This document shows positions 3,915-59,109 of a DNA stretch of 64,000 nt, one piece after another. Under the pieces are notes generated by a model, which had not been told where the DNA came from, searched no databases, and saw nothing but the letters and a program-made list of their open reading frames with translations. Position 1 is the stretch's first letter, and each line of letters starts with the position of its first letter. Both the position numbers and the translations under genes were made by a program. This stretch comes from Adenophora triphylla var. japonica (lineage: Eukaryota; Streptophyta; Magnoliopsida; Asterales; Campanulaceae): NCBI GenBank assembly GCA_022495995.1, contig JAFEMH010002516.1:166001-230000 (forward strand), in the 5' to 3' direction.

Positions 3915-3922
3915 AATTTATA
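3915..3922 (-). promoter_or_regulatory. TATA box of the Del-like LTR (left copy)
   Basis: The reverse complement reads TATAAATT, about 70 bases downstream (on the element strand) of the GC-dyad array. The other LTR has the same box at 10067-10074. Confidence 0.6.
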
Positions 3923-3991
3923 GTGGTTGGGAATCATACCACGAGGTTGTTGGTAAAAATCAGTAAGAAATTAACTGAGGGAATCTGGTGA

Positions 3992-4174
3992 CATGGGCGA
4001 CCGCCCATGTCACTTGGGCGACCGCCCAAGGGAGCTTCAAAGGAAGACCGGCTACTGGAGGGGTGGGCGACCGCACAAGATACCTTGGGCGACCGCCCAA
4101 GAAGGTATTAAGGGAGAGTCATTTTCTGGACACATGGGCGGCCGCTCAAGCCCCCCCATGGGCGACCGCCCAAG
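3992..4174. promoter_or_regulatory. Array of six GC-rich dyads (TGGGCGACCGCCCA)
   Basis: Six units with core TGGGCGACCGCCCA occur at about 3992, 4013, 4063, 4084, 4133 and 4157; four are perfect and two are variants (GACCGCACA, GGCCGCTCA). The flanks extend several into 18-base dyads starting CAT or CTT and ending ATG or AAG. They lie just upstream of the LTR TATA box. Confidence 0.8.
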
Positions 4175-5186
4175 TCCCCTTCCAGCCATACTAAATTCTA
4201 AACCCCTTTTCACCTAGTTTCTTTTCCCCCTTTATAATTCTTTTTTATTTTTGATGCTCATGAAAGACTCCCAAATAATTACTACTTCATTCTAAATCAA
4301 TCAAACCCAAACAACATAAACCTCAATCCTATACAACTTGATCTCCTATACATTTCCTACCACAACCCTAGTTCAATCATCTTCATTTACCTTAACCCAT
4401 TTTCATCCACTTCTTGGTCATCTTCTATGAACAACAACAACAACATCCTTCCATAACTTTAACCAATTTCTCCATTCTAAGAGGGTTTCCAAGCATCAAA
4501 CATTCATTTAACAATAAATACAACATTCATATCTTATGAACATTTAAAGAAGGGAAAGTCATAATAACTCACTTTGAAGTAGGAGATGGATTATGGATTT
4601 CTTGAGCTTGTTAAACTCCCCTAGATGCACCATTCACAAAAGTACAACTTGATTTGAAATTGTAGAAGAATTGAGCTTGGTAGAAGTCTTGGAAGGAGAG
4701 GCTTTCAATATAGATCTTCCATGGAAATTGTAAGAAGAAAATGGAGAAGAATGATGGAGGAGGTTAGAGGGAGTGGGGAAAGAGTAAGGAGGAAGTATAG
4801 AAGGTATGGGGAGGTTTGACTATTGGGGAGAGGAGGATGAGGAAATTAGGGGGAAGCATGGTCCCCCCCATGCCCCTAATAATGTAAGGCTTTCACCCAT
4901 TTAAAATAAAGCCCCCAAATGTTTAAATAAAGAACTTCAACCTTTTACTTCTTTCCTCTACACAAGTAATTTAGCTACTCACATTTTATTTATTTTCAAT
5001 TACCATATCCCAATAAAATAATTTAACTTATTTCCATATTTAACCTAAGGATTTTAAAACTATCCTTCCACCATCTCATCCTAACATAAGAATTTAAATA
5101 CATAAAATAAACACATAGAGTTAACATTAATATTAAAAGCATAACATATTATACTAAAATTTGTGCCTAGGGTTAGGGTCGTTACA

Positions 5187-5202
5187 CTCACTCCCCCTTA
5201 AA
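5187..5202 (-). other. Polypurine tract of the Del-like element
   Basis: On the element strand this reads TTTAAGGGGGAGTGAG, directly followed by the LTR start TGTAACGACC. This is the expected position for the plus-strand primer in reverse transcription and fixes the minus orientation. Confidence 0.85.
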
Positions 5203-5439
5203 GAAAATTCGTCCCGAATTTTAAACTTGCTTACCCTAATGATCAATTAAAGAAGGTGTCCTCCCTATAAAAGTCAAATTCGCTTAATCATCATTAGTTG
5301 AAGAACTCCATACACATGAGGAATTATAAAGATAATTTTTCCCATACAATGTTCCATACGTTACCGACTCAATACTGACTGAAATCCACTAATACACGCA
5401 AACCCACTAAGGTTACCAAACTTCTCAAGTTGAAAGGAA

Positions 5440-7250
5440 ATCCATCGCACAACACACAACTTAATCTCAAGGACCTGGATAGTCTTCTCTGTTTGCCCAC
5501 TGCCTGAGGATGAAACACATTACTGAAACTCGACTTGGAACTCAAAACCTTGCATCCAGCTTCCCAAAGTACAAAAAATTCTCGATCCCGATCTGGTAAA
5601 ATGTTGATTGGTGCTCCACGAAATCAATCAATCTCTCGCATGCACAATGTTTTAATTTCTCCCTCGAACCCTTCGTTGAAATAAGTAGAAAGTAAACCGA
5701 CTTGATCTATATATCCACTATTACTCCAACACACCCATCTTCATCGACGTTGAAGGTAGCTCTAGTTACAAAATTCCATCGCAATGTCTTCCCTTCGAAT
5801 CTTCTAACTCTTCTTCAAATCTTGATACCTCTTCGAACTTTCCTGATGGATCACAATTTTAGATCTATGGTCTTCCTCTAAAACTGGTCTTCTAATCTCT
5901 TGCAGTAACGGTATGCACATTCCGAGTTGAGGTTAAATTTTCATCCCAATTGTCGTTACAAAATCCTTGGTCTTCCCATCTTGAAACTAGCCGATAATCC
6001 TCTTAACTTCTGAATCATGGTTGAACTTCCTCTAAAGTCTCCACACTATAAGTGTAACTTGAATATTCGCAATAATATCTCACCTTGCAACTCAAAGGGT
6101 ATACTTGTTAACACATGAGCCTTTCGGCTAATCGCATTTGCAATCACAATAACTTTCCCGGTTAACAAGATATAGCACAATTTAAGTCTTTCTAATAATT
6201 TCCACCTCGACTTTGCTTATTGTTAAATTCCTTCCGAACCCACAAATACTTTAAGCTTTTATGATCGGTAACACATCTCGAGATTTAGTTGCACATAGTT
6301 AAAATTTTTCACTTGTAAAACGCAATATAATCTCACTACTCCCAAGTTGAAAATAAGAAAATTATGTTCCTTTTGTTTCACTTCTTCTAAATAGAAGTTA
6401 TCACTTCCCATTGATACGCAATTAAAATCGTCAATTTCTCACATCCATTAGTCAGATAGGATCGGATCTGCAATCAACCTATTCTTCATTTCTACCTATA
6501 TGATTCACCCTTATTGGCATTTTACATCATGGATACCTCTTCCAGGTTAACTATATCAACAATAATACAATTCTCAAGAATCTAATGATACTCCCTTGGT
6601 AGCACCCCTTTCAATCCTAAAACTACGGACTCATTATGGCAATATTCCAAAGCCAACTCACAATTATTAAACTTCACACATAAATTCTCCTATTGAAGAA
6701 TAGATAACACAATTCACAATTAATTTTCATTATATTCTCAACTTCAAATAAGCAAGGATGTCACCACTAATAATTTCCACAAGCTATCAAGATAAAGATA
6801 AAACTCTGCTCATTATAATCACAACAAAATCGAGACCGTTCTATAAGGTGCTTTTGATATAGGCATTAAACCCGACACTAAATCAATACGTAATTCCACT
6901 TCCCAACCGGAAGTCATATAATACTTTGCTGAAAGCACACTTACCATTTTCCTAATTAGCACATAGCAATTTTCGAAGACTTCTTACCTAAGTCTACCAC
7001 ATACCAATTAAGCTTCACACTTTTTAACCAAAATTTGTTTCAATCTTTAAGGCATATATAACAAGGGTACCACATAAAGGCTTATCTGCATCTAATACCA
7101 TATAGACCAATTAGGCATAGAAAGAAAGACTCGTTTCATACGATAGTCTATTAATACAAGGTCACTACTTAACCAATCTAGGCCAAGTATACATCAAAAT
7201 CACACATTGGTAATCATACTAAATCAACTGGCAATACATGCTCAGTTATG
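5440..7250 (-). pseudogene. Decayed gypsy pol (protease, RT, RNase H, integrase pieces) in the Del-like element
   Basis: There is no long ORF, but pieces appear in canonical order on the minus strand. Near 7170-7210: protease C-terminus with HVLPVDLV and LPMCDFDV. Near 6835-6920: RT N-terminus with RIDLVSGLMPISKAPYRT. Near 6200-6275: RNase H region with TDHKSLKYLWVRKEF, then ANAISRKAH near 6115-6145. Near 5440-5650: integrase core, with SFSNVFHPQ matching the FHPQTDGQ box but lacking the TDGQ residues. Stops and frameshifts separate them all, and total length is about half of a normal pol. The LTRs are young, so this decay predates the insertion. Confidence 0.8.
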
Positions 7251-7499: not shown

Positions 7500-8543
7500 T
7501 TACCTTTTTGGATTCCCTTCATTGTCCCTTTTCATTCCACCTCTTTGCCCCCTATGATCGGACCCCGAAGCTAACATCTGATGAAATACAGGACAATTTT
7601 TCTTGTAGTGCCCCATTTCTCCACAATTCATGCATTTCCCTTGCTTACTCCAACACTTGTCTTCAGAATGACCCATCTTCTTGCAATAACCACATACGAT
7701 CCTTACCTGATTTGAAGTCGGATGAGTTGTCGTAGTCACCGCTTCTTCTCCTCTTGCTAATCCCGATGCTGATCCTCTCTGTTGCCTTCTACTATATCCA
7801 GAACCTTGGCCTTGAAATCTCTGTTTACTTCCACTTCCACCCTCAGATCTACCCCGGTGCTCGTCAATGTCATTCTCTATTCGATAGGCTTTATTCACTG
7901 CTGCTTGGAAATCTGTGAAGTCGTGAGTCAATAACTGTTTCCTAAACTCTAGCCTTAATCCCTTCACAAATCGATATACCCTTCTCTCTTCTTCCGGCAC
8001 CAAATGTGGACAATAGCGAGCTAGCTCCGTAAACCTTGCTGAGTACTGCGCCACAGTCATTGATCCTTGCTCTAATCTCAAAAACTCGACTTCCTTCCTA
8101 TCTCTTGTAACCATTGGAATAAAGTGATCTCGAAACTTGCGTGTGAAGTTCTCCCAAGTCTGCGGTGTAAGGTCCCGATCCCAGCCATCCTTCACTACTT
8201 GCCACCAATGCTCTGCAGGTCCTTCTAACTTGAAGATTGCGCATCTCACCTTTTCTACATCTGTACTCTCCATCGCTGCGAAAATCTTATTCATAGCTTC
8301 AAGCCATCTCTCCGCCTTCTCCGAATCTGGGTCTCCACTAAAGCTTGGCGGTGTCATCTTGACAAACTTTTCCAAACCATGCCCATATCTGCCTTCTTGA
8401 TGTTGCTGTGCTTGCCCTTGTGTTGCCATATTTTGCAAAAATCCTCGGAACATGTTCATCGTCTCAATATTCGGATTTCCATCACTTCCGGAAATACCAA
8501 CATTGCCCGGAACCTAATGCTGATCATCCTCATTTCCAGCCAT
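7500..8543 (-). CDS. Gag of the Del-like element (capsid plus two CCHC zinc knuckles), early stop in the N-terminus
   Basis: The open frame 8459-7500 encodes 319 residues: a retrotransposon gag/capsid domain (about residues 40-200, with PPSFSGDPD, AEHWW and the YCPHLVPEEE stretch), a Gly/Ser/Arg-rich linker, then two knuckles, CGYCKKMGHSEDKC (about 256-269) and CMNCGEMGHYKKNC (about 276-289), which bind genomic RNA. The same frame extends upstream to an ATG at 8543 (MAGNEDDQH) with a TAG at codon 10 (8514-8516). The related element at 23103-28264 starts with the similar MAGNNDDQR, so 8543 is probably the ancestral start. Translation would have to begin at the ATG at 8459. Gag is the only intact protein of this element and could co-package its RNA with that of autonomous relatives. 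Confidence 0.82.
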
Positions 8544-8640: not shown

Positions 8641-11334
8641 TGTGAGGACCCCAACCCGGAACCTGACCCGTGTCCCGAGCTAGAGTGTCCCCAAAAGAAC
8701 TCAAACCACCTAAACTTTTTTTAAAACTTTGATTTAACTTACAACTTAAACCTACTGAACATAACCATTTCAAAATAACTTCATTCCTCTCTACATGGAA
8801 GGAAGAGTTGAATAACTTTAAAAGTAACAACCTGTTTTAATTACAAAGGACTTTGGTTATAACGTAGAAATTAAGTTTTACACACACAAACTCTATAAAG
8901 GAATTATACAAAGTACATCTTCTATGCCAACCTATACGTACCCCGACAAATCCCAAAATACCACGTCCAAACTCCTTTCCGTCCTCACTTGGCCGGTCCG
9001 CCTGTCTCAGGATCTAAAAACATTAAAGGGAGAGGGGTGAGAATAAATCTCAGCAAGCTATTATGAATGCAGCAATATGCCAAGTAAGATGCAACACATA
9101 GCACAAGACATCTCACATATTGGTAAAACAAGAAACACCTTTCGTTACCTTTGTTTACCTTTCCCGTCCGAATCATAAGTCGTATCACCGTGGGCATAAT
9201 ACTCCACTATTTCGTGAATGCATATCCACCGTAACCAATATCATATAACCGAGACAGCTATGATTATAACTCATCTCCCGTGAACTGCTTAGGCATATTC
9301 ACATCTTATAAGACCCGTTTTTCAGGGAACCAAATAAGATAGTAGCAACTCTGTAAGGCTTTTGGCTCAATACGTATGCTATACCCCGCCCTGTGGCCGC
9401 AGAGGGGGAGAGGTCACAGTATGATGGACCTTCAATCACTTAGAGAACAAATCAATAATTGATTGAATTCCATTATACCCCCAATCACATAAAATATAAA
9501 CACGTTCAAGCACATAATAGATACTTGAAATATAATCCACAAAGGGGATAAGCAATGTAGCCACATGGTAAAATATACTCATGTTAAACCAATATCATAG
9601 TGTAACATTTATGTAATACACTAAACATATTACTATCAATGAATATGAATCCAAGTAAGGTACAATATAATCAATAAATCCACCATTGGAATAGCAATAC
9701 AACCATACGATAAATATATCCACACTTGGGATAACAATGCACCCATATAATGAACATATCCACACTGGGAATAACAATTTAACAACATAGTATATAAATC
9801 CACACCTTGGATAATAATAAATCAATGTGGTAATTACACATTCCCAAACTAGTACGATAGTGTAACCTACAACTTCTACACTATTCAAACCGATCACCAA
9901 GGATATAGGCAAGTAAGGCCACTATGTGTCATGACTCAACCCTACATAGTCATTATACAACCTCAAATAAACTTAATAATGGTTCAAGATCTATTTCCCC
10001 AAGTTGAGCTTCTTTAATCTAAGTTAAAAGGGATTAATTCCTATCCGGCTTGGATTAGGTTCTACTAATTTATAGTGGTTGGGAATCATACCACGAGGTT
10101 GTTGGTAAAAATCAGTAAGAAATTAGCGGGAATTCGGTGACATGGGCGACCGCCCATGTCACTTGGGCGACCGCCCAAGGGAGCTTCAAAGGAAGGCCAG
10201 CTACTGGAGGGGTGGGCGACCGCACAAGATACCTTGGGCGACCGCCCAAGAAGGTATTAAGGGAGAGTCATTTTCTGGACACATGGGCGGCCGCTCAAGC
10301 CCCCCCATGGGCGACCGCCCAAGTCCCCTTCCAGCCATACTAAATTCTAAACCCCTTTTCACCTAGTTTCTTTTCCCCCTTTATAATTCTTTCTTATTTT
10401 TGATGCTCATGAAAGACTCCCAAATAATTACTACTTCATTCTAAATCAATCAAACCCAAACAACATAAACCTCAATCCTATACAACTTGATCTCCTATAC
10501 ATTTCCTACCACAACCCTAGTTCAATCAACTTCATTTACCTTAACCCATTTTCATCCACTTCTTGGTCATCTTCTATGAACAACAACAACATCCTTCCAT
10601 AACTTTAACCAATTTCTCCATTCTAAGAGGGTTTCCAAGCATCAAACATTCATTTAACAATAAATACAACATTCATATCTTATGAACATTTAAAGAAGGG
10701 AAAGTCATAATAACTCACTTTGAAGTAGGAGATGGATTATGGATTTCTTGAGCTTGTTAAACTCCACTAGATGCACCATTCACAAAAGTACAACTTGATT
10801 TGAAATTGTAGAAGAATTGAGCTTGGTAGAAGTCTTGGAAGGAGAGGCTTTCAATATAGATCTTCCATGGAAATTGTAAGAAGAAAATGGAGAAGAATGA
10901 TGGAGGAGGTTAGAGGGAGTGGGGAAAGAGTAAGGAGGAAGTATAGAAGGTATGGGGAGGTTTGACTATTGGGGAGAGGAGGATGAGGAAATTAGGGGGA
11001 ATCATGGTCCCCCCCCCATGCCCCTAATAATGTAAGGCTTTCACCCATTTAAAATAAAGCCCCCAAATGTTTAAATAAAGAACTTCAACCTTTTACTTCT
11101 TTCCTCTACACAAGTAATTTAGCTACTCACATTTTATTTATTTTCAATTACCATATCCCAATAAAATAATTTAACTTATTTCCATATTTAACCTAAGGAT
11201 TTTAAAACTATCCTTCCACCATCTCATCCTAACATAAGAATTTAAATACATAAAATAAACACATAGAGTTAACATTAATATTAAAATCATAACATATTAT
11301 ACTAAAATTTGTGCCTAGGGCTAGGGTCGTTACA
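8641..11334 (-). repeat. 5' LTR of the Del-like element
   Basis: A 2,694-bp partner of the left LTR with the same termini (TGTGAGGACC ... GTCGTTACA on the plus strand). Differences are scattered substitutions and a few short indels, for example one fewer CAA near 10580. It carries the same promoter module at 10067-10323, driving minus-strand transcription toward gag. Confidence 0.93.
10067..10323 (-). promoter_or_regulatory. Promoter module of the Del-like 5' LTR: TATA box plus six-unit GC-dyad array
   Basis: Going downstream on the minus strand: six TGGGCGACCGCCCA-type dyads (10141-10323), about 65 bases, then TATAAATT (10067-10074). All six units keep the state seen in the left LTR, so no unit has been gained or lost since insertion. 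Confidence 0.7.
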
Positions 11335-14521: not shown

Positions 14522-14595
14522 CTATTTATAGGCAGTCTGGATAAGGCTAATGAGGCCGTGCGGCTAGAGGTCCTTGGCTAATGCAGCCGTGCGGC
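14522..14595 (-). promoter_or_regulatory. Tat-like LTR promoter: TATA box and two GCCGTGCGGC dyads
   Basis: The reverse complement of 14522-14530 reads TATAAATAG, a consensus plant TATA box. GCCGTGCGGC occurs at 14555-14564 and 14586-14595, 25-70 bases upstream on the same strand. The second LTR copy keeps the box at 16641-16649, one intact dyad at 16674-16683 and one decayed to GCCGTGTGGC at 16703. Confidence 0.7.
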
Positions 14596-14813
14596 ATTAT
14601 CCTGTGTGACTCAGCATGTTTCTAGAATCATGCAAGGTGGCAATTCTAGAAGGTTTTTGGGATTAAGAAAAACGTGTTTATTAATTATCAAGCATTCCCT
14701 TCAGCCCTTAAAAGGTTTGGAACAGTTCCGAAATTATTTCGGAACTCTAGGAAAGTCCGGGGAATTATCGGAAAACTTTACCGGAAGGCATGAGCCAAAT
14801 TTGAGTACTTACA

Positions 14814-15247: not shown

Positions 15248-16952
15248 TGTGAATGTGTGCCCAAATTTGTGGATTCACGCGAGTTTGAAGACATCCGGTT
15301 TAATTTGAAAAACGGAGTCGCCACGCCATTTTGATTTCCTCAAAACTTTGAAAAAAAAGATTTTATGGGTTCGGAGGTTAAGTTACCCCTTGGGAAGAAC
15401 GGATCGTCGTTCACCCAAGGTGCCTTACCGTAGCAAGTCTCCCTAGATTCCGTTTATTTTGCTTGCTTGCGTGCTTTCTTGTGTGCATGTGTTTGAATGA
15501 AAGGGGAGGGAATGTCCCAAGTTGTCTTCCGGACGTATAAACCATTTATTAGTTGTCGCTCGGGATTTCTTGGATTTTATGTATTCGGGATTTTGATCCC
15601 GTCCTCATCTTGGACTTGTGATCATCGCATTTTTAACCTCGGGACTTGCGTGATCGAGAGAAGGACTCTCTTTTATAGCCCAAAAATGAGGTTCTTTAGG
15701 AAGGAATGTCCTTAGCCCATCAATCCTACACCTTAAGACGATCGAGCTTATATAAATGCTTCATGCTCGTCTTAAGTGATAATCGGAGATATAGGGTTCA
15801 AGGTTATCCCTTTCTAAAGAGATTATGGAACCTTTAATGGAAGAAACGATGTAAAGATAGGATCTTTACACCGGTCCGTTCCAAGGTTGCTAATGGGGAC
15901 ATGGGGGAATGCATGTAAAAATGACATTTTTGGGTTGCAAAGGATGCATTTGATTTGCAAAGGATGCATTTCGATGTAAAGACATGATTTTTATGCAAAA
16001 GATGCATTTTGATGTAAAGAAGTGATCTTTATTGCAAAGGATGCATTTTTATGATGAAGGAATGACCTTTAATGCAAAGGATGCATGAAAATGGATTGTA
16101 GGTACAAAGGATGCACCTTTTTTATAAAGACATGATTTTTATATGCAAATGATGCATTTTCGGATGTAAAGATTGCATTTTTATGAGCAAAGGATGCATA
16201 AAGATGACATTTTTATGTAAAAAGGGGATTTTTAGGTGCAAAGGATGCACCTTTGAATATAAAGATTACATTTTTAATGACAAATGATGTCTAATTCATG
16301 CAAAGGGGAAAGGGGTATAATAAAGATATGATCTTTAATGCAAACTACCAAGTCCCAAGCAAAGATAATAACAATATATGAATGCAATGAGCAATCTAAT
16401 TCACATAGAGCAATTAAAATGCAAGGCAAGGGAGTGAGAGGTTACCAATGGTGGCCTCTTCTTCTTTGGGTTGAGCTAGGTGGAAGGACCAACTTTGGAA
16501 TCTTCAAGGAGGAGGGAGGTGGCTTCTTGGCTTGCTTCTTCAACCTTCTTGGATTTCCAGCAGTATTATAGAGTGTATTGTGTGTGTTTTTCGTGTTTGG
16601 TTGCCTTGTTGTTGGTGTCTAAAATGGGAAGAGGAGGGCTCTATTTATAGGCAGTCTGGATAAGACCAATGAAGCCGTGCGGCCAGAGATCCTTGGCTAA
16701 TGCAGCCGTGTGGCATTATCCCTTGTGACTCAGCATGTTTCTAGAATCATGCAAGGTGGCAATTCTAGAACCTTTCCCAAATTAAGAAAAACGTGTTTCT
16801 TAATTGGGAAGCATTCCCTTCAGCCCTTAGATGATTTGGAACTGTTCCGGAATTGTTCCGGAACTCCAGGAAAGTCCGGGGAGTTACCGGGAAAATTACC
16901 GGAATTGCCGGGAAATTAACCGGAAGGCATGAGCCAGATTTGGGTACTTACA
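15248..16952 (-). repeat. LTR of a Tat-like element, copy 2
   Basis: About 1,705 bp, collinear with 13085-14813 and offset by 2,163 bp at its start. It lacks the first copy's short stretch near 13105-13125 and differs in the GCAAAGGATGC minisatellite. The TATA box on the minus strand lies at 16641-16649. It is followed on the right by the polypurine-like tract and internal sequence, so it is in 3' LTR position for the pol at 22262-29595. Confidence 0.7.
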
Positions 16953-17432: not shown

Positions 17433-17544
17433 TTGACAATTAATGGAGGTTGTCACCTGATTGACAATTAATGGAGGTTGTCACCTGATTGACAATTAAT
17501 GGAGGTTGTCACCTGATTGACAATTAATGGAGGTTGTCACCTGA
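17433..17544. repeat. Four exact tandem copies of a 28-bp unit
   Basis: Identical units start at 17433, 17461, 17489 and 17517. Each begins TTGACAATTAATGG and ends GTTGTCACCTGA; GACAA and TTGTC make each unit a stem-loop. A diverged single copy (CTGACAATTCGGAGG...) lies at about 17993. Perfect identity means recent expansion or recent homogenisation. Confidence 0.97.
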
Positions 17545-17990: not shown

Positions 17991-18193
17991 TTCTGACAAT
18001 TCGGAGGTTGTCACCTAGCGTTATTCCGTTATAACGGAAGTAACGGAGGTGACTGGGGAAGAAAGCTTACTTGCTTAGGAGATAAGGGATATCTTTTAAA
18101 AACGACGTTATCTTGGTTAAAAGATAACGGGTATTACATGCCCAATTGGAAAGTCCAGGGGCAAAAGGGTAATTTCTGCTCAGAGCGAAAGAA

Positions 18194-18264
18194 GCCGCCC
18201 GGCATGAGATGGGGGCAAAAGAAGCCGTACGGCTAGAAGCTTGATTTTTCCAGATTATTTAAAA
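18194..18264 (+). promoter_or_regulatory. Putative promoter of the antisense plant-mobile-domain gene
   Basis: Dyads GCCGCCCGGC (18194-18203) and GCCGTACGGC (18224-18233) precede a TATA-like TTATTTAAAA (18255-18264). The first ATG is 116 bases further on. This is the same word family and layout as the LTR promoter at 14522-14595, but on the opposite strand. Confidence 0.5.
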
Positions 18265-20967: not shown

Positions 20968-21319
20968 GAGGTCTCTAGAATTGACTTAGGAAGAAAAACA
21001 AACAATGAACAAGTTTTATGCACATTTTGTTTATTTTTTGCTTTATTTGGGCGCCGATGGGGCGAAAACAATGTATTGCTGTTATATTTGCTTTTTCTAT
21101 TTATGCTTTATTAATTTGCATATTACTTGAGCCTCGGGGCAGTTTTTTGCTTGGAATCGGGGCTAAAACTGGGCCAAAATGATATATAATGATGTATAAA
21201 TGCTTGGATGGTCTTTGAACATGCTTTTGTACAGGTTTTGGTTGGAAAAGTGGGGTGAAAACTCCCTTTGGGCAGCAACTTGGTTGCTGCAGATTTGTCA
21301 CTTACATCAGGTAAATGAA
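20968..21319. other. Spacer between two antisense genes
   Basis: AT- and T-rich after the PMD stop codon, with no ORF of note. The T-rich stretch at about 21010-21120 would be the 3' UTR of the PMD-like gene. Confidence 0.4.
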
Positions 21320-21359
21320 GCCGTGCGGCATGGCTCTTGAGCAAATGAGGCCGTGCGGC
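21320..21359 (+). promoter_or_regulatory. Pair of GCCGTGCGGC dyads before the DUF7745-like gene
   Basis: Exact GCCGTGCGGC at 21320-21329 and 21350-21359, about 140 bases before the ATG at 21498. No convincing TATA box follows, so this module may be decayed. Confidence 0.5.
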
Positions 21360-21497
21360 TCACAGTTCTGTCTGGACTGGTTATTTTCAGAATAAACCCA
21401 AGGCTTGCCCATTTCATTTCATTTTCAACTTAGACTTGTCCCAACTGTTCCCAGAGCACATATTGAACCTAAAGACACCACCTTTGATCATTTGGCG

Positions 21498-23102: not shown

Positions 23103-26100
23103 TGTAACGACCCTAACCCTAGGCACTAGTTTTAGTATACTATTATATGCTTTTAATATTATTGTTAATATTATGTGTTCATTCTATATCCTTGATTTCT
23201 TATATTAGGATGAGATAACTGAGAAATTAAATAAAGCATCTTGGGAGAAGTATAATAATAGAAATGAATAAAATAAATAAAATGTGGGTAGTTAGGCTTT
23301 TTGTGTGGAAATTGGTGAAAGCCTTAGTTATTTGGGGATGGGGGGCCATGCCCTCCCCTTGAATTCCTCATCCTTTTTCCTTTTTGTCAACTCCTCCCCA
23401 TACTTCCTCTATCCTTCCCCATACTCCTCCCATACTCCATCCTCCTCATTCTTTCTCCTTCATTTTCTTCTTCTTCCTTCTCCAAAAATCCATGGAAGCT
23501 TTACTTTGAAAGCCTTGCTTTCCAAATTCCTACTAAGTGCAATTCTTCTCCAATTGGCAATCCGGGTGTACTTTTAAGTTTGGGACAACTAGGGGAATTT
23601 ATCAAGCTAAGAAGATCATCATTTCATCCTAAAATTCTAAGGTAAGTTATTATGACTTCCTTCTAAATATTGCTCACTTTATGTGTTAATGAATATTTTG
23701 TGAAAAGAAAATGATTGTGATATTTTTGAATAAGGTTATTTGAGTAAAATAGGTTAATTAAAGATGAATTGATTTTTAGTATGAAATGGGGGTTTAAGTT
23801 GGAAGAATGAGGGTATAAGGAATGTAAAAGGCTAATGACTTTAATGGAGTTCTTGTATGTAGTTATGTTCATCTTACTTTGATTTGGGAGATGTAAGGAG
23901 TTTATCTCATTTGGGTAGAAAGAAGTAGAAAAAGGACTTGTTATACTTTTAATGTTGTGAGTTATTATGATCTTTCCTCCTATTTAATGTTCATGAACTA
24001 TTGGGTGTTGTTATTTTATTATAATGTTTAATTGATGCTTAGGAAACCTTCTTGGAGTTGATAAATGGGGTAATGGTAAAGAATGATGTGGTTTAAGGAA
24101 GTTATCAAGAGTGTAAGAAATGGGTGGAGTTAGTTTTAGAAGATTGAACTTGAAATGTGTTAGTGAAATGGGTTGAAAATCTTGTGGTAAATAATTTATG
24201 TTTATAGTATTTTGGGGTGTAAATGACTTAGAATGAGGTTTGTAAAGTTAGAAAATCCTTTTGGTGTTTATAAAAATAAGAAAGATTTAAAAAGGGAAAA
24301 AGAATATATTTGAAAGGGGTTAGTGAGCTGAGAAAGGGCCAGGAATTCATCTTGGGCGGTCGCCCATGGGGGCTTGTGCGGCCGCCCATCTCATCAGCCT
24401 TTGGGACTTCAACATTTTTCATCTTGGGCGGTCGCCCATGATGCCTTGGGCGGTCGCCCATGTTGGCAGAAGTTTATTCAGTTTCCTTTCTTGCTGATTT
24501 TCACCAATAACCTCGCGGCATGAATCCCAACCATTATAAAGTAGTGGAACCAAATCTACCTCGGATATGAATTAATCCTTTTTAACCTAAGTTAAGGTAA
24601 AATACCTTGGCTAGGCCATGATGTCTTATTTGATCAAAATGGAATTGTAGAAGTAGTTTAAATATTGTTCGGGAAATGGTTGATAAGCTTGAATTGTAAC
24701 TTCACCAAAGTGGTTCAAACTTGGGAAGTAGATCTTGAACCTCTATTAAGGCTAATTGAGGTTGTGTAATGACTATGTAGGAATGATTGATGATACATAG
24801 TGGCCTTACTTGCCCCATACCCTTGGAGATTAATTTGAATAGTGTAGAAACTATAAGTTACATTATTACGTTAGTTGAGAACGTATATGTATTACATCGT
24901 CGTACTGTATTCCCAGTGTGGATTATTGGGCATATTGTTATGTTTTATCCCAATTGTGGATTATCTGCATGTTGATATTATTGTATCCCGAGTGGGGATT
25001 AATTGGTACATTGTTATGCTACATCCCAAGTGTGGATTATTTGATATATGGTTGTATTGTATCCCGGTTGTGGATTATCTGGCATGTTGATTATATTGTA
25101 TCCCGGTGTGGATTATGTGGTTATATGGATACCTTATTTGAATTTATATTCGTTAATGGTATTATGCATAGTGTATTAAATAAATGTTGCACTATGGTAT
25201 TGATTTAACATGAGTATAATTTACCATGTTGTTATATTATTATCCCTTTTGTGGATTTAATTCAAGTAACTATTATGTGCTTGGATATTACATGTGATCA
25301 GGGGGTATAATGGAATTCAATCAATTATTGATTTGTTCTATAAGTGATTGAAGGTTCATTATACCTGTGACCTCTCCCCTCTGTGGCCACAGAGTGGGTG
25401 TGCTAGCGACTGTATTGAGCCAGAAGCCTTACAGACCGCTGCGATTTGGTGATTAGGGGGAAAGCTTCTGTATTAAGCCAAAAGCCTTACAGATAGCGGC
25501 AATATTATATGATACTCTTATTAAAGGGGTCATATAGATATCTGATTTTCTTATATGGATCTCTGGAGTACGAGTCCTATAAGCGGTGAATGTGCATGGG
25601 GGCAATTCACCAAAGAGTGGAGTTTTACTCTCACGTTGTACGACTTATTGTTCAGACGGGAAAGGTAAAATGAGGTAACGTAAGGTGTTTACCGCTTTAA
25701 TAATGTGCTATGTGTAACCATGCTATGTGTTGCATCTTGTTTGGCATCTTGCTGCATTCATAATAGCTTATTGAGATTTATTCTCACCCCTTCCGTTTTT
25801 CTTGTTTTAGATTGTCTTTGAGACAGTGACTGAACCAGTGAGGCCGGGGAAATAGTTTGGACTCTGGCTTTTGGGACTTGTCAGGATAGGTATATGAGTA
25901 GGTTGTCGGGAGTCCTATTAAAGTATTACTCTTTTATAAATTGTATAGAAAACTCTTTTGTTAAACAATGTTAATTTGGGTTTTCAATGTAATTAATCAA
26001 GTTATAGTTAGTAGAATATTTGTTTAAATTCCTCCGAGTGGAGATATTATCAGTTGATTTTATTTCGAAAGTTTAAGAATTGGTTTTCTTTTAAAGTGAA

Positions 26101-29595: not shown

Positions 29596-31165
29596 TGTTC
29601 GGTCGAAACCTAACGGTTTATTTTATATCCGCAAGCGCACGGGCTATTGTAATATAGCGGGTGCAAGTACGAGTCGATCCCACAGAGACAGGGTTTACTT
29701 AAGGGATATTTTTGTCTTTTAGAAAATATAGAAAGGATTGGGGGGGTAGATAAAATTTGTTTTTAGAATAATAGAGAGATCATAAACAGAAAATACTTTT
29801 AATTTAAATCTTATAAAACGAAGCATTCTTGGGATTGGAAATCATACACATATTCTTATTCATCAAATTGTCATTGTCTTAGAAATAAAAGGTTTTCATA
29901 AAAAGCAAGGATGGTATGTTAGGCCTACGCTATTTCGGGCTAGGACAATAGCGTTTGTATTCTTCACTAATTATGTCCTAACTGTTTGAGAAATCCGTTT
30001 ATGTTTGCCCCGCCCTGTCACAAACGGGCATTCCGGCTTATCTCTAGCTGACCATAATTAGTAAGAATCCATTAAGGACGGAAGTCAACATACTTTCCAT
30101 TAAAGGAACATCCCTAGGCCATTGAACTACTCTCGTGATCAATAAACCTAGTTTCTTTATATGGTTCCGTCAATTGAGATTCTCCGCTAGGTACTTCTCT
30201 CAATTGACTGAATCATACAAATTGGATATCGCCAATAAGTAAGGCATTTAGAGAATAATATAAAGAGATTGTTTTAGATGAAGAAAGAAGACAAGACTAA
30301 TCATTTTTAGATGATGAATAAGCATGCTTTTGAGTTTCCAACCCCAAGAATATGGGGGATTACTCACAAGCCATTTATAATATATAAGCAATTAAAATAA
30401 GAGATTGAGTAAGAAAGACTTATGATGAACAAATGTGGAAATAATGCTTCACTTTTATTGCTCTTCTTCCAAAGTGACTTCAAGAACAAAATAATGACTT
30501 GATCTTCAAATCTCCTTAGAAATTGTTATCACAAGTATTTGTGTTTTCTATCTATCTAATATCAGTAGTTTCTCTCTAATAATTCGTGTCTTAGATCGAT
30601 CACTAGGGTCCTATTTATAAAAGGAGGGAACTCTTCAATCGGGTGCAACCAAAAGGTGCCTTTACGTCTGCAGTCGCGTTTTGCACGGCCGCGTCAAGGA
30701 AGTTGCACGGCCGTGTGACCCTTGGCGCCAGATTTGAATTTAAGTCTTGACACTTCGCACGGCCGCTCCTATATAAGGCCGCACGGCCGCTCCATAAGAT
30801 GACACGGGCGCTCCCTCTTCAAGACACCGGCCACTCTATAATTGAGGGCCAAAAATGGCCTGAAAAAGGCCAAGTGCACGGCCGCTCCATCTTTGCTGCA
30901 CGGCCGCTCTGTCTGAATTTTAACTTTGTGTGCTTGATTTGGTTGGTGCTCTCCCAAGTCTTTTGCCTTGAAGTGTCCAAGTATCCTTTTGATAAAAATG
31001 AACCTAAAATCTGTCTTAAAAAGCAAGAAAAATACCAAAAGCGTAAAATCTAGAAAATAAGGAAAAGGAACTAAAAAGTATATGAAATAAAATGAGAAAT
31101 GATGATTTATGCAATAACAAGTATATAAAAATAAGGATAAATGACTATATAATAGTCACTTATCA
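29596..31165 (-). repeat. 3' LTR of the Athila-like element
   Basis: Plus-strand ends TGTTCGGTCGAAACC ... GTCACTTATCA. It holds the GC-word array at 30683-30907 and a minus-strand TATA box at 30611-30619. Confidence 0.9.
30611..30907 (-). promoter_or_regulatory. Athila-like LTR promoter: TATA box and GCACGGCCGC array
   Basis: GCACGGCCGC or GCACGGCCGTG at 30683, 30705, 30757, 30781, 30876 and 30898, plus the variant CACGGGCGCTCC near 30803. Downstream on the minus strand lies TATAAATAG (30611-30619). The other LTR has the same layout (about 38160-38460) with some words mutated (GCACCCGCCGC, GCACGACCGTG). Confidence 0.7.
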
Positions 31166-34096: not shown

Positions 34097-34325
34097 TTTA
34101 AAGTGGATGGGGCGGAGGTTTTGAGGGAGAAAGGTTGAAGATGAAGTAAATGAGGGAGGAGGAGAAAAGCTGCGCTTTTTGACCGGAACGACGCAACTCC
34201 CCTGTGACGTCTTGCACGGCCGTGTCAAGGAATTTGCACGGCCGTGTCCCTTTTACTGAGTCAACACATTCCAACTCGATATGAACTGCACGGCCGCTCC
34301 AAGAAGAGCTGCACGGCCGTGCGAA
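34097..34325 (-). promoter_or_regulatory. Internal copy of the LTR promoter module, upstream of the ORF1-like gene
   Basis: GCACGGCCGTG-type words occur at about 34214, 34235, 34288 and 34312, and a TATA-like TTTAAATA on the minus strand at about 34097-34106. The block GCACGGCCG.GTCAAGGAA..TTGCACGGCCGTGT is shared with the LTR (30683-30716). The ORF1-like start codon is about 300 bases downstream. This suggests separate transcription of ORF1 from a duplicated LTR module. Confidence 0.45.
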
Positions 34326-37144: not shown

Positions 37145-38713
37145 TGTTAGAGTCGAAACCTAACGGTTTATTTTATATCCGCAAGCGCACGGGCTATTGT
37201 AATATAGCGGGTGCAAGTACGAGTCGATCCCACAGAGACAGGGTTTACTTAAGGGATATTTTTGTCTTTTAGAAAATATAGAAAGGATTGGGGGGTAGAT
37301 AAAATTTGTTTTTAGAATAATAGAGAGATCATAAACAGAAAATACTTTTAATTTAAATCTTATAAAACGAAGCATTCTTGGGATTGGAAATCATACACAT
37401 ATTCTTATTCATCAAATTGTCATTGTCTTAGAAATAAAAGGTTTTCATAAAAAGCAAGGATGGTATGTTAGGCCTACGCTATTTCGGGCTAGGACAATAG
37501 CGTTTGTATTCTTCACTAATTATGTCCTAACTGTTTGAGAAATCCGTTTATGTTTGCCCCCGCCCGTCACAAACGGGCATTCCGGCTTATCTCTAGCTGA
37601 CCATAATTAGTAAGAATCCATTAAGGACGGAAGTCAACATACTTTCCATTAAAGGAACATCCCTAGGCCATTGAACTACTCTCGTGATCAATAAACCTAG
37701 TTTCTTTATATGGTTCCGTCAATTGAGATTCTCCGCTAGGTACTTCTCTCAATTGACTGAATCATACAAATTGGATATCGCCAATAAGTAAGGCATTTAG
37801 AGAATAATATAAAGAGATTGTTTTAGATGAAGAAAGAAGACAAGACTAATCATTTTAGATGATGAATAAGCATGCTTTTGAGTTTCCAACCCCAAGAATA
37901 TGGGGGATTACTCACAAGCCATTTATAATATATAAGCAATTAAAATAAGAGATTGAGTAAGAAAGACTTATGATGAACAAATGCTGGAAATAATGCTTCA
38001 CTTTTATTGCTCTTCTTCCAAAGTGACTTCAAGAACAAAATAATGACTTGATCTTCAAATCTCCTTGGAAATTGTTATCACAAGTATTTGTATTTTCTGT
38101 CTATCTAATATCAGTAGTTTCTCTCTAATAATTCGTTTCTTAGATTGATCACTAGGGTCCTATTTATAAAAAGGAGGGAACTCTTCAATCGGGTGCAACC
38201 AAAAAGTGCCTTTACGTCTGCAGTCGCGCTTGCACCCGCCGCGTCAAGGAAGTTGCACGACCGTGTGACCCTTGGCGCCAGATTTGAATTTAAGTCTTGA
38301 CACTTCGCACGGCCGCTCCTATATAAGCTGCACGGCCGCTCCATAAGATGACACGGGCGCTCCCTCTTCAAGACACGGCCACTCTATAATTTAGGGCCAA
38401 AAATGGCCTGCAAAAGGCCAAGTGCACGGCCGCTCCATCTTTGCTGCACGGCCGCTCTGTCTGAATTTTAACTTTGTGTGCTTGATTTGGTTGGTGCTCT
38501 CCCAAGTCTTTTGCCTTGAAGTGTCCAAGTATCCTTTTGATAAAAATGAACCTAAAACCTGTCTTAAAAAGCAAGAAAAATACCAAAAGCGTAAAATCTA
38601 GAAAATAAGGAAAAGGAACTAAAAAGTATATGAAATGAAATGAGAAATGATGATTTATGCAATAAAAAGTATATAAAAATAAGGATAAATGACTATATAA
38701 TAGTCACTTATCA
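37145..38713 (-). repeat. 5' LTR of the Athila-like element
   Basis: Plus-strand ends TGTTAGAGTCGAAACC ... GTCACTTATCA; nearly identical to 29596-31165. Confidence 0.9.
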
Positions 38714-44596: not shown

Positions 44597-45974
44597 TGAT
44601 GGGGTAAAAACCCACATAGTAATAGAAACCTCGTAAGTGCACAAGTTATCGAAGTAGTAATATGCACAAGAAAGGGTCGAATCCAAAGGGACTTGTGTTA
44701 TCAATAGTTCGACTGTCAACAATTAAACAGAAATTAAAAAAACAGGCTTAGGTTTTGATTTTAAATTTCTACTTAAACAATTAAAATAAATTACCGACCT
44801 AAAGCAAGAAATAAACAAAGCAATTAAAGATATTACCGAAGTCAAGGGAAGAAAGACCTACATAATGGATTCATATGTATCTCACCAATATGTCTATTAA
44901 TAATATAATCAAACATTGTTGGGGGATCATTCTCTTTAGTAAAATTGGGCGTTCACACGTACACAATTTAGTGTTCTCCAGATATTATATCTTGTGTAAA
45001 GTCCACATAGTACTCAAGAACCGATTAAGACCATAGGAAAAAAGAACCTACAATTTTGTTTCGCAATCACTTGTCAAAATTTAATTATATTCATTCAAAT
45101 GTTTGACTTTGTATAAATCAAGCAATCACTTGCAATCCTTATACACAAATTTAGTTTAAAAGCCAATAACACCTACACATGTGATTGTAGCTAGGAAAAT
45201 CTAATTAAGAATACTTTTGATGAACCAAACGTTTGATTGATCGTAAAATTGATTATAATATAAATAATTGATACATATTACATCCATTTTTGTAGATAAA
45301 AAAAGATTAGCTGCTCATATTAATGGTGAACATTGACAAATCTTCAATCGAATGCATAAAACTTGAATTAAAAACTTGAATCCTTGTTACAACTAGAATT
45401 ATAGAATAAAGCATAAAAGATCCTTAAAAACGTGGTTGTAGTGGATATTTATAATTGGCAGGAGAAGGTGTCGAAAATTAGGAAACAATCGCCAAATCCT
45501 AACCGAAATTGGAATCTGAAAATAGCTGGACGAAGGTAGGAGCGAGCGCTCCCGAAAAAGGGGAGCGCTCCCAAAGGGACAGTTGCTTCTAAGTTTTTGG
45601 AATTTGGAAGTGTGCGCTCCCAGTGATTCACTGACTTGTACCTTTTTCGGTAAACTTTCGAAGTCCATAACTTCTTCTTACGGACTCCGATTTGTACGTG
45701 GCACATATCATTGGAAAGCTATCATCGATTACTATCCATTAGTAGTGATTTAACAAGGTCACATCCTTCTTTTCCATATGTTATATCCATTATTTTCTCT
45801 ATTGTCGTTCCACTTTTAATCGTTCTTTTTCGTACTCATTAAGATCATAATCGATGAATTTTTCTTTCTATTCCCTGTACTCATAAGCACATCAAAATGA
45901 AATTAAAACACTAAGTTTGAGCATCAAATATGTCTAAATATATATAATTTGTATGGGTGAAAACACATCCATCA
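44597..45974 (-). repeat. LTR of a second tRNA-Asp-primed element (5' LTR)
   Basis: 1,378 bp, TGATGGGGTAAAAACCC ... AACACATCCATCA on the plus strand, with ends TGATGG/CCATCA inverted. Its sequence differs from the Athila-like LTR at 29596. Promoter module at 45446-45620. The 3' partner is not in the window. Confidence 0.75.
45446..45620 (-). promoter_or_regulatory. LTR promoter: TATA box and GAGCGCTCCC dyads
   Basis: GGGAGCGCTCCC (45561-45572) is a perfect 12-base dyad; partial copies are at 45544-45553 and 45609-45620. On the minus strand TATAAATA (45446-45453) follows about 90 bases downstream. Confidence 0.6.
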
Positions 45975-46463: not shown

Positions 46464-46821
46464 TGTGAAGACGAAGACGGCACTGTACAAGTGGGCAACT
46501 GCCCAGCACCAGTTTCAAGCAACGTTAAACCTTCTGTACAAGTGGGCGAACGTCCAAGAGCAAAACCCAATGACGCTGAAACTTCTGTACAAGTGGGTGA
46601 CCGCCCAGGTCCCAGTGGGCGACCGCCCATGATCAAAATATGACGTGATTTAGTTCCTGTTTTACGTCTGTTTCCTTTTCTTAATTACTTTGATTTGGTT
46701 TTTCCTTTTCAGATTAGGTTTTTCCTTTTCAGATTAGGACTCTTTTTGTATCTCATATATATTCATAGGTTCATCAATAATAATCACAAGTTTTGGGAAA
46801 ATCATAAATTGTTTTCCTACA
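46464..46821 (+). repeat. 5' LTR of the copia element
   Basis: TGTGAAGACGAAGACGG ... TTTTCCTACA, 358 bp. Four GC dyads at 46492, 46543, 46594 and 46616, three with mutated CpG sites; TATATAT at 46756-46762. Confidence 0.95.
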
Positions 46822-49781: not shown

Positions 49782-50582
49782 ATTAAGTACAAGTCTGATG
49801 GTACTGTTGAACGGCTTAAATCTCGATTGGTGGTTCTTGGTAATCATCAGAAAGAAGGGATTTATTACACGGAAACTTTTGCTCCTGTGGCCAAGATGGT
49901 CACCGTTCGAGCCTTTCTTGCCATTGCTACCTCAAAGAATTGGGAACTGCATCAAATGAATGTGCATAACGCTTTCCTGCAAGGTGATCTTCAAGAAGAG
50001 CTCTACATGAAACCTCCTCCGGGCTTTCATTCCAATCAGCCTAATATGGTTTGTCGCCTTCGCAAATCCCTTTATGGCCTGAAACAGGCCCCGCGTTGTT
50101 GGTTCGCTAAGCTGGTGGCTTCCTTGAAACACTATGGATTCTTACAGTCTTATTCTTATTATTCCCTGTTCACATTCACTAAAGGTACAATTCATATGAA
50201 TATTCTTGTGTATGTTGATGATCTTATTATAGCTGGGAACGATTCCGCTGCCTTTCAGTCTTTCAAAAAGTATCTAAGTGAATGTTTCAAGATGAAGGAC
50301 CTTGGCTCCTTGAAGTATTTCTTAGGAATTGAAGTCGCTCGTAGCTCCTCTGGTCTATTTTTATGCCAATGCAAGTATACATTGGACATTATATCCGAGT
50401 TTGGGCTATTGGGAGCAAAGCCATCAGGGTTTCCCATTGAACCGAATCATAAACTTGGCCTTGCCACTGGTGATCTTCTGGATGATCCAGAACTTTATAG
50501 ACGATTGGTTGGTCGTCTCATTTACTTAGCAGTACTCGTCCAGATTTGGCATATTCGATTCATATTCTGTCACAATTTATGA
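49782..50582 (+). pseudogene. Copia reverse transcriptase, mutated catalytic motif A
   Basis: The open frame 49827-50582 contains ETFAPVAKMVTVRAFLAIA, QMNVHNAFLQGDL, KSLYGLKQAPRCWF, ILVYVDDLIIAG and FLGIEVARS. The YVDD box is intact, but motif A reads MNVHNAFL where an Asp is required (codon AAT for GAT at about 49957), a single G-to-A change that removes one of the three metal-binding Asp residues. A TAG at about 49780 separates it from upstream coding, and a one-base shift near 50535 separates it from RNase H. Confidence 0.9.
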
Positions 50583-51171: not shown

Positions 51172-51571
51172 TGTGAAGATGAAGACGACACTGTACAAGT
51201 GGGCGACCGCCCAGGTTTGGTGGGCGACCGCCCAGCACCAGTTTCAAGCAACGTTAAACCTTCTGTACAAGTGGGCGACCGTCCAAGCCAAGTGGGCGAC
51301 CGCCCAAGAGCAAAACCCAACGACATTGAACCTTCTGTACAAGTGGGCGACCGCCCAGGTCCCAGTGGGCGACCGCCCATGATCAAAATCTGACGTGATT
51401 TAGTTCCCGTTTTACATCTATTTCCTTTTCTTAATTACTTTGATTTGGTTTTTCCTTTTCAGATTAGGTTTTTCCTTTTCAGATTAGGACTCTTTTTGTA
51501 TCTCATATATATTCAGAGGTTCATCAATAATAAACACAAGTTTTGAAAAAATCATAAATTGTTTCCCTACA
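51172..51571 (+). repeat. 3' LTR of the copia element
   Basis: TGTGAAGATGAAGACGAC ... TTTCCCTACA, 400 bp. Six GC dyads at 51200, 51221, 51272, 51293, 51344 and 51366, five of them perfect TGGGCGACCGCCCA; TATATAT at 51506-51512. Preceded by GAGGGAGGG. Confidence 0.95.
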
Positions 51572-57080: not shown

Positions 57081-57354
57081 ACCAACAAAATACAAATCAC
57101 CCCTAAACAACACAAAATAATATACTCCAATATGTCCCAAAATAAATGTCTATTTTTTAAAAAAAAAATATTACAAATGTCTCTTTCTTACAAATTTTGA
57201 TTCTAAATAATTTTTTATCAATTATCACTCATTATATATTTGCAAAACAAAAAATTTTAAAAGTGAATAGAAAGATTATTTATGAATCTTTGCTATAAAT
57301 ATTTATAAAAAAAGCTATTTTAAAATATAATTTAAATAAAAAAATTTCATTACC

Positions 57355-57759
57355 ATTATTCTTTTTTCGTAACCCCAACTCAGCCCATAAATCATATAAA
57401 TAATTAATAAGAATTATAATCCATAACCCATCCCCTATCCTATTTTTACCCAATGTTCGAAACAAAAAATTTAAGAAATCATGACGAATGATTTTTTTTA
57501 ATTGATTTAGTTACAAACATTTTTCTAAAATCATTTTTTTTAAAGATTCTAAAATCGTTCAAAAACTTAAATAAATGATCCTAAGAAAATAAAAGAGAAA
57601 AATGAATAAATCAAATTGGAATACACATAAATAAAAAACAAAAAAAATACCCAATTCAATTTTTTTGAAAGAAAGAGTATATAAACCCTAAACTTTTTTT
57701 AAGGAGTATACTAAATAATTAAAAAAAAAAAAATGATCATTTATTTATAACCGATTTTT
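57355..57759. repeat. Direct duplication, copy 2
   Basis: Same order of motifs as 56631-57080, offset about 724 bp; several short deletions explain its smaller size. Confidence 0.85.
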
Positions 57760-58082
57760 CTGTTTTAAAAAAAAAAGAATCTTAAAAAAACTTAAGTCAT
57801 CTGCAAAAAGAAATAATAGTTAAAAAGAAAAATAGAAAGGAGAAAATGAAAAAGGAAGGTTAAAAAAGAAAATAGGAGAGTGTTTAATTTCAGCCGTTTG
57901 GTCACTTTTGTAACTTTAAAGCTGAACCACCGCTTATATGGTAGATAAGAGAAAATTTTTTGACCTTGTATTGTATTATAGATTGATTTCATTGTGTGAT
58001 ATATAGCACAAAAACTAAATCTACTATAGTGAGCAAATCTCATATACAAATTGATTATTTTAGTTTTTGGCACTGAAGATTA

Positions 58083-58449
58083 GAAGGAATTTGGATGACC
58101 AAATCCGGTCCGGTTTCGGTTTCGGGCCTTGAACCGCCGGTTTCAGTTCGGCCAAATGGTAACCCTTAACCTACCCGCACTAACCTCGGTTCCGGTTCGT
58201 CCGGTTTCGGTTTTCTCCCCGGTTCGCTCCGATTCCGAGCTTTTTCGGTCCGGTTCCGGTCCGGTTCTTTGGAAAACGTGGAAATTTCGTCCGGTTCACG
58301 GTTCCGATTCCGGTCCGGTTTGGCATTTTTGTAACCCTTAACCGGCCCGTACTAGCCCCGGTTCCGGTCCGTCCGGTTCCGGGCTTTTCCGGTCCGGTTC
58401 CGGTCCGATTTTCCGATTTCGGTCCGGTTTGGCCATCCCTAGAAGGAAA
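58083..58449. mobile_element. hAT-like MITE with CCGGTCCGGTT subterminal repeats
   Basis: Element 58091-58441 (351 bp), flanked by GAAGGAAT and GAAGGAAA, an 8-bp duplication with one mismatch. The ends TTGGATGACC and GGCCATCCCTA are imperfect inverted repeats. The interior is filled with CCGGT, GGTTCCGG and GGTCCGGTT words, far more GC-rich than its surroundings. No transposase. Confidence 0.75.
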
Positions 58450-58479
58450 TGGTCGATTAATCGTGGATCATGAACTATG

Positions 58480-59109
58480 AATTGAGAATGGGGTTAGCTA
58501 GGCTAAATCTATGTATAAAACAGAAATCAAACAACAATCACACAAAAACAACGATATACGTGGTTTATCAACTTGGCTACGTATATGGGCAGAGAGTGAC
58601 AAAATATTATTATCAAATGGAAATCAACATAAAATATAATCTGTAATCTAATGCACGAATTCTTAATCACAAGAATTCCTAAATGTGCAAACCGTATATT
58701 TATAGAAACAGATGAGCAATTGAACTTTAGAACCCTATAATTATTGATATGAATAACACAAAATTATATAAGATTGTTAGGGGAATAGGGGGTATTTATA
58801 ATTCCCTAATCCTAACCCTGCAGAGTTTCTTCAAATCCTGCGCTAAACTGGTCGGCGCAGGGCCAAAACGACACAGCGCGCAACCGCACCTTAGACTGTG
58901 CGATCGCGCATTTTGTCTAGAGATTTGGCGCGATCGCCCCCACCATGTCGCGTAACCGTGCCCTTTTATCCAGTGGTATTGCGCGGCGGCACCCCGTGCT
59001 TGCACATGCATGTCATGCTCAATCAGATTGCTATCACAGGAATTACTTTTTTTGTTTTTTTAATTCCCTAATTTAGACGTCCCCAAATTAGATGACATTA
59101 AATCCAACA
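58480..59109 (-). repeat. LTR remnant with promoter module
   Basis: On the minus strand it starts TGTTGGATTTAATGTC (59109) and runs through a GC-rich cluster (58855-58990, with TGCGATCGCGCA at 58899-58910 and GGCGCGATCGCC at 58927-58938), TATAAATA (58793-58800) and a copia-like leader ending with AAACCACGTATATCG (about 58555) and TTTGATTTCTG. No PBS or partner LTR was found, so it is a solo or truncated LTR. The left end is uncertain. Confidence 0.5.

Follow-up and report, generated by a model that had tools for sequence, protein, structure and literature searches.

Separate Ty3/gypsy and Ty1/copia lineages of Adenophora triphylla carry the same oriented dyad module

The window analysed here is a 64,000-nucleotide stretch of the Adenophora triphylla var. 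japonica genome (assembly GCA_022495995.1, 2.48 Gb in 8432 contigs; contig JAFEMH010002516.1, positions 166,001 to 230,000), in which long terminal repeat (LTR) retroelements carry arrays of short palindromic words, or dyads. Self-comparison of the window recovered LTR pairs for a Del-like element (98.6% identical), an Athila-like element (98.3%) and a copia element, together with a 2-kb repeat pair (13128-15209 / 15271-17348). Pfam matches placed Ty3 gag on the minus strand at 7503-8513 and 35550-36569 and RVT_2 on the plus strand at 49782-50579. The names Del-like, Athila-like and Tat-like are those of a first-pass annotation; the domain tests resolved the superfamily level only, copia carriers included. 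Strand was taken from the Pfam domains for the Del-like, Athila-like and copia elements and from the TATA box itself for the remaining arrays. The commonest word, TGGGCGGTCGCCCA, belongs to a larger, oriented module with the layout dyad–N7-9–dyad–N6–CAG and a period of ~72 bp. Its arrays in the window are the following.

3994..4172, minus strand: array in the 3' LTR of the Del-like (Ty3-type) element, six dyads TGGGCGGTCGCCCA on the sense strand, spacings 21, 49, 22, 49 and 24
3985..3987, and likewise 4055-4057 and 4126-4128, minus strand: CAG box of the Del-like 3' LTR, 6 bases past the second dyad, read from the sequence
3915..3922, minus strand: TATA box TATAAATT of the Del-like 3' LTR, 72 bp downstream of the array
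10143..10321, minus strand: Del-like 5' LTR, array as in the 3' LTR, TATA 69 bp downstream
24353..24460, plus strand: second Del-like LTR (related element, opposite strand), four dyads, spacings 22, 50 and 22, CAG at +6 after both second dyads, weak TATA TATAAAGT 75 bp downstream of the array
46492..46629, plus strand: Ty1/copia 5' LTR array, four dyads (three mutated) with a GACC centre on the sense strand, lacking 21-bp dyad units of the 3' LTR, TATA 127 bp downstream
51200..51379, plus strand: Ty1/copia 3' LTR array of the same element, six dyads, spacings 21, 51, 21, 51 and 22, TATA 127 bp downstream
51191-51193: CTG (CAG on the minus strand) of the copia 3' LTR

The first-pass annotation had claimed that unrelated families share one promoter design, in which a GC-rich dyad array stands just before a TATA box of the same strand. 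All dyad words that it named were recovered in their places by a word scan. Several of the copies that it counted in sixes and fours carry one or two mismatches, and in the copia 5' LTR only one of the four is exact. The Del-like and copia elements do use the same 14-base word, as it had said, but in opposite orientation relative to transcription. Compared with the copia 3' array, the 5' array has lost 21-bp dyad-plus-spacer units, and its dyads show CpG-type decay. Across all 14 window arrays, including those of other words listed below, GC content is 55-64% in flanks of 32-47%, and the CpG observed/expected ratio is 0.66-1.37 (no formal island call was made).

To describe the module beyond the window, a set of 30 commonest-word arrays was assembled from this one genome: 4 from the window, 4 from loci found by a genome word search, 2 from 10-kb regions and 20 fetched around listed word places, with the second LTR of the Del-like pair excluded. 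The arrays come mostly from two contigs, and copies or sites of the same family are not independent. The arrays form 14 clusters, defined by alignments of at least 250 bp. A strict grouping gives 9, since three cluster pairs still share sequence once the words are masked, and sequence next to the arrays links two clusters to each other and one of these to the Del-like array as well. Loci L004 and L007 were merged partly through overlapping stretches, L004 being the internal array of an element whose LTRs are L002 and L007. The number of dyads ranges from 2 to 8 per array (arrays, not whole elements, were counted).

Neighbour spacings in this set fall almost entirely into two classes, 19-24 bp (74 spacings) and 46-53 bp (45), with 3 of the 122 outside. 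Read in the GGTC orientation, 51 of 65 distinct sites have a CAG that starts exactly at +6 after the second dyad, and every one of the 14 clusters has such a site; the other 29 CAG offsets within 0 to 29 account for 14 sites in total. The CAG columns hold 1.07-1.33 bits, whereas linker columns 23-51 reach at most 0.48 and lie below 0.3, near background, in 28 of 29 cases. A C stands two bases ahead of each dyad in ~71% (family-weighted). Four arrays fetched later repeat the spacing and have CAG at +6 at 9 of 13 second dyads (hand count), or 6 of 8 when L054 and L057, which are more than 98% identical to L033 and L043, are left out; L054 and L033, 10.7 kb apart, resemble an LTR pair from a single element. 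Neither the fixed spacing nor the CAG box had been noted in the first-pass annotation; its observation is confirmed, and is larger than described. Murine leukaemia virus LTRs carry 72-75-bp direct enhancer repeats in the unique 3' (U3) region upstream of the TATA box; that period is similar to the ~72 bp found here, which may be chance agreement, and it belongs to one viral lineage with other sequences.

The two halves of the second dyad are unequally conserved. The right half, adjoining the CAG, is exact at 59 of 64 sites and the left half at 32 of 64, so recognition appears polar. Changed arm pairs retain Watson-Crick pairing through compensation in 1 of 60 cases. Among the 33 changed pairs in clusters whose sense strand is known, 10 could form a G-U wobble; 11 pair when wobble is counted, and 22 are broken. 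The dyad does not clearly extend into its flanks, complementarity at positions +1 to +6 being found at only 14-27 of 64 sites. A polar module, the asymmetry between the halves of the second dyad and arms that are rarely compensated together fit a protein that reads DNA better than an RNA stem.

The carriers belong to both superfamilies: RVT_2 lies in the window copia element, Ty3 gag in the Del-like and L033 elements, and a Ty3 pol ends 427 nt from the L032 array. Named matches of copia reverse transcriptase include Cuscuta and Vitis. The sense strand reads GGTC in L013 and the Del-like cluster, and GACC in the window copia element, L002, L033, L039 and L048, with L032 joining the latter if its array belongs to the adjoining Ty3 pol. 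The idea of a common module in unrelated families is strongly supported by a shared word, spacing and CAG box in 14 clusters that include gypsy and copia.

The word is abundant. Exact copies of TGGGCGACCGCCCA number 26,569 forward and 26,133 reverse in the genome (52,702 in all), and the same letters read backwards occur 0 + 0 times. As a chance control, 20 regions of 10 kb at round-number places were compared with Markov sequences; because one of them, L013, happens to cover a place already on the genome word-search list, counts are also given without it. Same-word dyad pairs at most 110 bp apart number 33 against a mean of 0.0 in the control (22 without the 11 of L013), a few of them being other tandem repeats rather than CG-rich dyads (L010 and L024 have examples). 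For dyads with perfect arms the count is 36, with 10.7 in the control; a CGNNCG core is found in 26 of them (21 when the five of L013 are dropped), where the control gives 0.8. The regions yielded the new dyad words GGTCCGTACGGACC, GTCTCGCGCGAGAC, ATCTCGCGCGAGAT and TGCACGGCCGTGCA; GGGAGCGCTCCC and CCTCGCCGGCGAGG fall outside the CGNNCG core pattern.

Proximity to a TATA box is frequent without being universal. Most arrays named by the first-pass annotation do lie upstream of a same-strand TATA box, at 23-127 bp (the second TATA of an LTR remnant stands at 150). Of 10 units counted as independent, 6 reach a TATA score of 6 or more on the presumed sense strand, compared with 17.9% of random 200-bp windows (p 0.004). 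Around the fetched arrays, a score of at least 9 is found pointing away from the array in 5 of 14 clusters and toward it in 2 of 14. The order of parts can be followed through one small element on contig C1: array at 887148, TATA at 887350, primer-binding site at 887805, internal array at 888151, junction of the polypurine tract with TGTTGG at 888926, array at 889008 and TATA at 889210. This order puts both of its LTR arrays in U3, after the LTR start and ahead of the TATA box as in the Tnt1 BII type, and the third array 346 nt into the leader; exceptions to the U3 location are this internal array and L013. The element (L004, G000:C1:887148-889044) thus has arrays in both LTRs and a third in the leader, within an internal region of ~1.1 kb. 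The array of L013 is found 523-704 nt past a primer site, and farther upstream stands a TATATAAA box (the LTR is putative). In the window copia element and L039 the array precedes the primer site, and in L048 a polypurine junction precedes the array. Given leader arrays in two elements, a position just upstream of TATA is common and not universal.

Both orientations, and two positions relative to transcription, fit an enhancer. Separate Ty3/gypsy and Ty1/copia lineages carry the same oriented module, and on these sequence features it is probably an enhancer read by a predicted host DNA-binding protein, the presence of one module in both superfamilies pointing to a host factor. A distance of 22 bp between dyads makes about two helical turns, which would place both on the same side of the DNA, and 50 bp is close to five turns. 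Both dyads and the CAG would be contacted by one dimeric or multi-finger protein complex, and several modules may jointly drive transcription from the TATA box. The module could have passed from family to family, or been selected repeatedly as families came to use one host activator; the unrelated linkers fit repeated selection or a very old exchange. Other words, such as the Athila-like word in its 22/50 spacing, may be read by related but different factors. The activating role proposed by the first-pass annotation is compatible with this grammar and with the two orientations. As a whole, its interpretation is partly supported. A bolder proposal, put forward tentatively and with the balance leaning against it, is that a cassette of dyad, 8 bases, dyad, 6 bases and CAG, repeated every 72 bp, would be a common currency of unrelated retroelements in this genome, with each word defining a guild that shares one host activator, and the elements partitioned by trans factors rather than by descent.

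Several points weigh against the enhancer reading. CAG is missing from +6 at 14 of the 65 second dyads and at 4 of the 13 in the later arrays, and 24 of the 30 arrays come from loci picked for the exact word on two contigs. Around the fetched arrays a TATA score of at least 6 is found pointing away in 8 of 14 clusters and toward the array also in 8 of 14, so that the TATA excess there is modest, and two elements (the L013 cluster and the L004 element) have an array in the leader, 346-704 nt past the primer-binding site. No named transcription factor was matched to the module. The words differ between families, which a single host protein does not explain, and the evidence comes from the sequence of one genome.

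Among the alternatives, the one that survives best, though we consider it unlikely, is a role in silencing. On this view the dyads are blocks, rich in CpG or prone to form hairpins, that draw in methylation and small RNAs, an idea already put forward for the palindrome-rich part of maize Sirevirus LTRs. Each TGGGCGGTCGCCCA word contains two CpGs, the window arrays are GC-rich blocks in AT-rich flanks, the dyads of one copia LTR show CpG-type decay, and PMC10760457, citing Bousios 2016, reports small-RNA enrichment at maize Sirevirus palindrome clusters. Silencing, however, requires neither the exact 22/50 spacing nor CAG at +6, nor one word in two superfamilies, and selection on the element should purge such a target if it had no other use, a point also argued in PMC10760457.

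It is less probable still that the array is a functionless LTR segment exchanged passively between families by template switching or conversion. The loss of 21-bp units from the copia 5' LTR relative to its 3' LTR marks the dyads as recombination points, and the array region of L037 is 77.6% like a Del-like array over 156 bp. Exchange of an LTR motif between gypsy and copia was also proposed for wheat RLG_Quinta and RLC_Gisela (PMC11302176). Passive exchange predicts similar linkers. They are near background, unlike the dyads, spacing and CAG, which are conserved, and masked flanks connect just three cluster pairs.

VANC proteins are anti-silencing proteins of VANDAL transposons. A VANC-like trans factor, encoded by one family of elements and used by others, is a very unlikely reader of the module. 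Different words in different families would match different trans factors, and the word is carried by a Del-like element with an internal length of 3.45 kb in which only gag was found. A scan of 28 open reading frames of at least 120 aa (20 from the window, 8 from fetched loci) nevertheless turned up, apart from pol and the zinc knuckles of gag, no domain of a DNA-binding factor, and sharing between copia and gypsy is simpler under a host factor.

Least likely of all is the suggestion that the dyads are RNA stems of the element transcript, for dimerisation, as the first-pass annotation also considered, or for packaging or stability: the words are perfect or near-perfect palindromes, the 3' end of the genomic RNA includes U3, leader arrays occur in two elements and the wobble-capable pairs noted above exist, but the arms do not covary, most changed pairs of known sense are broken even with wobble, and the polar module with its GGTC centre and CAG is sense in some families and antisense in others, which a single-stranded signal would not tolerate.

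Comparison with known systems places the proposed host-read enhancer module among, and apart from, several described LTR features. Sirevirus LTRs contain palindromic repeated-motif (RM) boxes upstream of TATA, which were called Sirevirus-specific and absent from classic elements (Bousios et al. 2010, PMC2829016). They occur in 8 up to 32 copies, have a CGG-CCG core in 12 of 13 elements, show similar words in otherwise dissimilar elements and have no binding protein known (PMC2829016). The Adenophora arrays resemble them in having similar words in elements with little other similarity, but differ in being carried by both Ty3/gypsy and Ty1/copia, in another core word, and in the 22/50 spacing and CAG box (the dyad count of 2-8 is per array, the RM-box count per element); fixed spacing is not among the RM-box features in the accessible text of PMC2829016. 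Carriage is not confined to Sireviruses, as Ty3 gag is found in the Del-like and L033 elements and Ty3 pol beside the L032 array. Nor is the CGG-CCG core general, since TGGGCGGTCGCCCA is without CGG...CCG symmetry while the Athila-like word (CGGCCG) has it. Gypsy carriers and a different core thus make these arrays of the same kind as the Sirevirus boxes, but not Sirevirus boxes.

A palindrome, CACCGGACNNNGTCCGGTG, is common to maize Copia elements and Helitrons, and its suspected cis-regulatory use was weighed against small-RNA targeting (PMC10760457). One palindromic word there spans different orders of transposable elements, comparable to the word that gypsy and copia share in Adenophora; the maize palindrome is treated, in the accessible text, as secondary structure and a small-RNA source, with no spacing grammar or orientation (PMC10760457). 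In wheat, RLG_Quinta (gypsy) and RLC_Gisela (copia) both have a 162-bp LTR motif near the promoter that was proposed as acquired (PMC11302176); unlike this homologous segment, which is linked to nucleosome positioning, the Adenophora feature is a short dyad array with unrelated linkers. The BII boxes in U3 of tobacco Tnt1 are said to bind defence-induced factors (PMC3316501), and a symmetric box I is cited in PMC2829016. These U3 boxes act in transcription from a plant copia LTR, the kind of role proposed for the Adenophora arrays, but Tnt1 is one family, and its boxes were studied experimentally. Insertion-target palindromes, considered because LTR elements often target palindromes (PMC6911290), were set aside as the arrays lie inside LTRs in fixed register. 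The accessible portions of the compared literature gave no description of the spacing-plus-CAG grammar, and a search for six exact dyad words in print returned unrelated papers only, most subscription literature being outside the search.

Earlier work ascribed palindromic boxes in LTRs to Sireviruses and knew no reader of them. A grammar that spans gypsy and copia, with its exact spacing and off-centre CAG, makes the question of a host activator a defined bait experiment. The result also bears on cis-regulatory movement between unrelated elements, which have words in common but not linkers. If the arrays act near genes, ~52,700 exact words would be a large pool of host-readable enhancer sites.

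The window also contains nine arrays of other words, three of which (at 18192-18235, 21318-21361 and 34214-34324) are additional to those of the first-pass annotation.

30683..30907, minus strand: Athila-like 3' LTR array, word GCACGGCCG with a variable right half, 22/52 spacing, TATA 64 bp downstream
38255..38455, minus strand: Athila-like 5' LTR array, TATA 87 bp downstream
34214..34324, minus strand: Athila-like internal array, spacings 22, 52 and 23; the element strand has only TTTAAATA (112 bp away) and the opposite strand TATAAAAA (59 bp away)
14553..14597, minus strand: Tat-like GCCGNNCGGC dyad pair, spacing 31, TATA 23 bp downstream
16672..16716, minus strand: Tat-like dyad pair, spacing 31, TATA 23 bp downstream
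18192..18235, strand not established: extra GCCGNNCGGC pair at spacing 30, with TTTAAAAG (score 5.8) as its best TATA-like word
21318..21361, strand not established: extra GCCGTGCGGC pair, spacing 30, TATATATC 130 bp away on the minus strand and none on the plus strand
45540..45623, minus strand: GGGAGCGCTCCC array (element at 44597), spacings 19 and 49, TATA 87 bp downstream
58854..58940, minus strand: LTR remnant with CGATCG-centred dyads, spacing 30, TATA 54 bp downstream and a second TATA at 150 bp

The three additional arrays have no strong TATA on the assumed strand, and two of them have one in the opposite direction. The Athila-like word is a different word in the same 22/50 spacing syntax as the commonest one: its spacings are 22, 52, 24, 95 and 22 in one LTR, 52, 23, 94 and 22 in the other, and 22, 52 and 23 in the internal array. 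The long gaps (94, 95) contain weaker copies of the word, and two of the three arrays are LTR mates. Reading by eye shows no regular CAG at +6 in the Athila-like arrays. Immediately beyond the Athila-like 3' LTR and adjoining the second Del-like element, pieces of Ty3-type reverse transcriptase and RNase H lie on the minus strand at 28265-29617 and are probably nested insertions. Beside the Tat-like elements, two units are tandemly repeated at 17433-17990, one of 28 bp in 4.0 copies (100% matches) and one of 49 bp in 9.0 copies (92%).

In the few examples at hand, words of the GTCTCG type stand 22 or 19 apart, and GGTCCG words stand 30 apart in three places, exactly preceded by GCAAAGA in 5 of 8 cases (hand count). 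Within L012, GGTCCGTACGGACC dyads 30 bp apart, often with GCAAAGA before them, occur at 3218-3470, 5569-5612 and 9018-9060, and are possibly another composite module with its own fixed flank. In L015, TGCGGCYGACCGCA dyads 16 bp apart lie inside tandem-copy repeat units at 311-360 and 1603-1650. One array has an EF-hand gene as neighbour whose nearest match is from Cornus florida, at 73%. An EF-hand (KIC/PBP1-like) gene segment is present in L052 as a tandem duplicate (1785-2413 and 3145-3772, 98.9% identical), and an array-bearing LTR lies between the two copies, ~180-360 bp from the second start codon.

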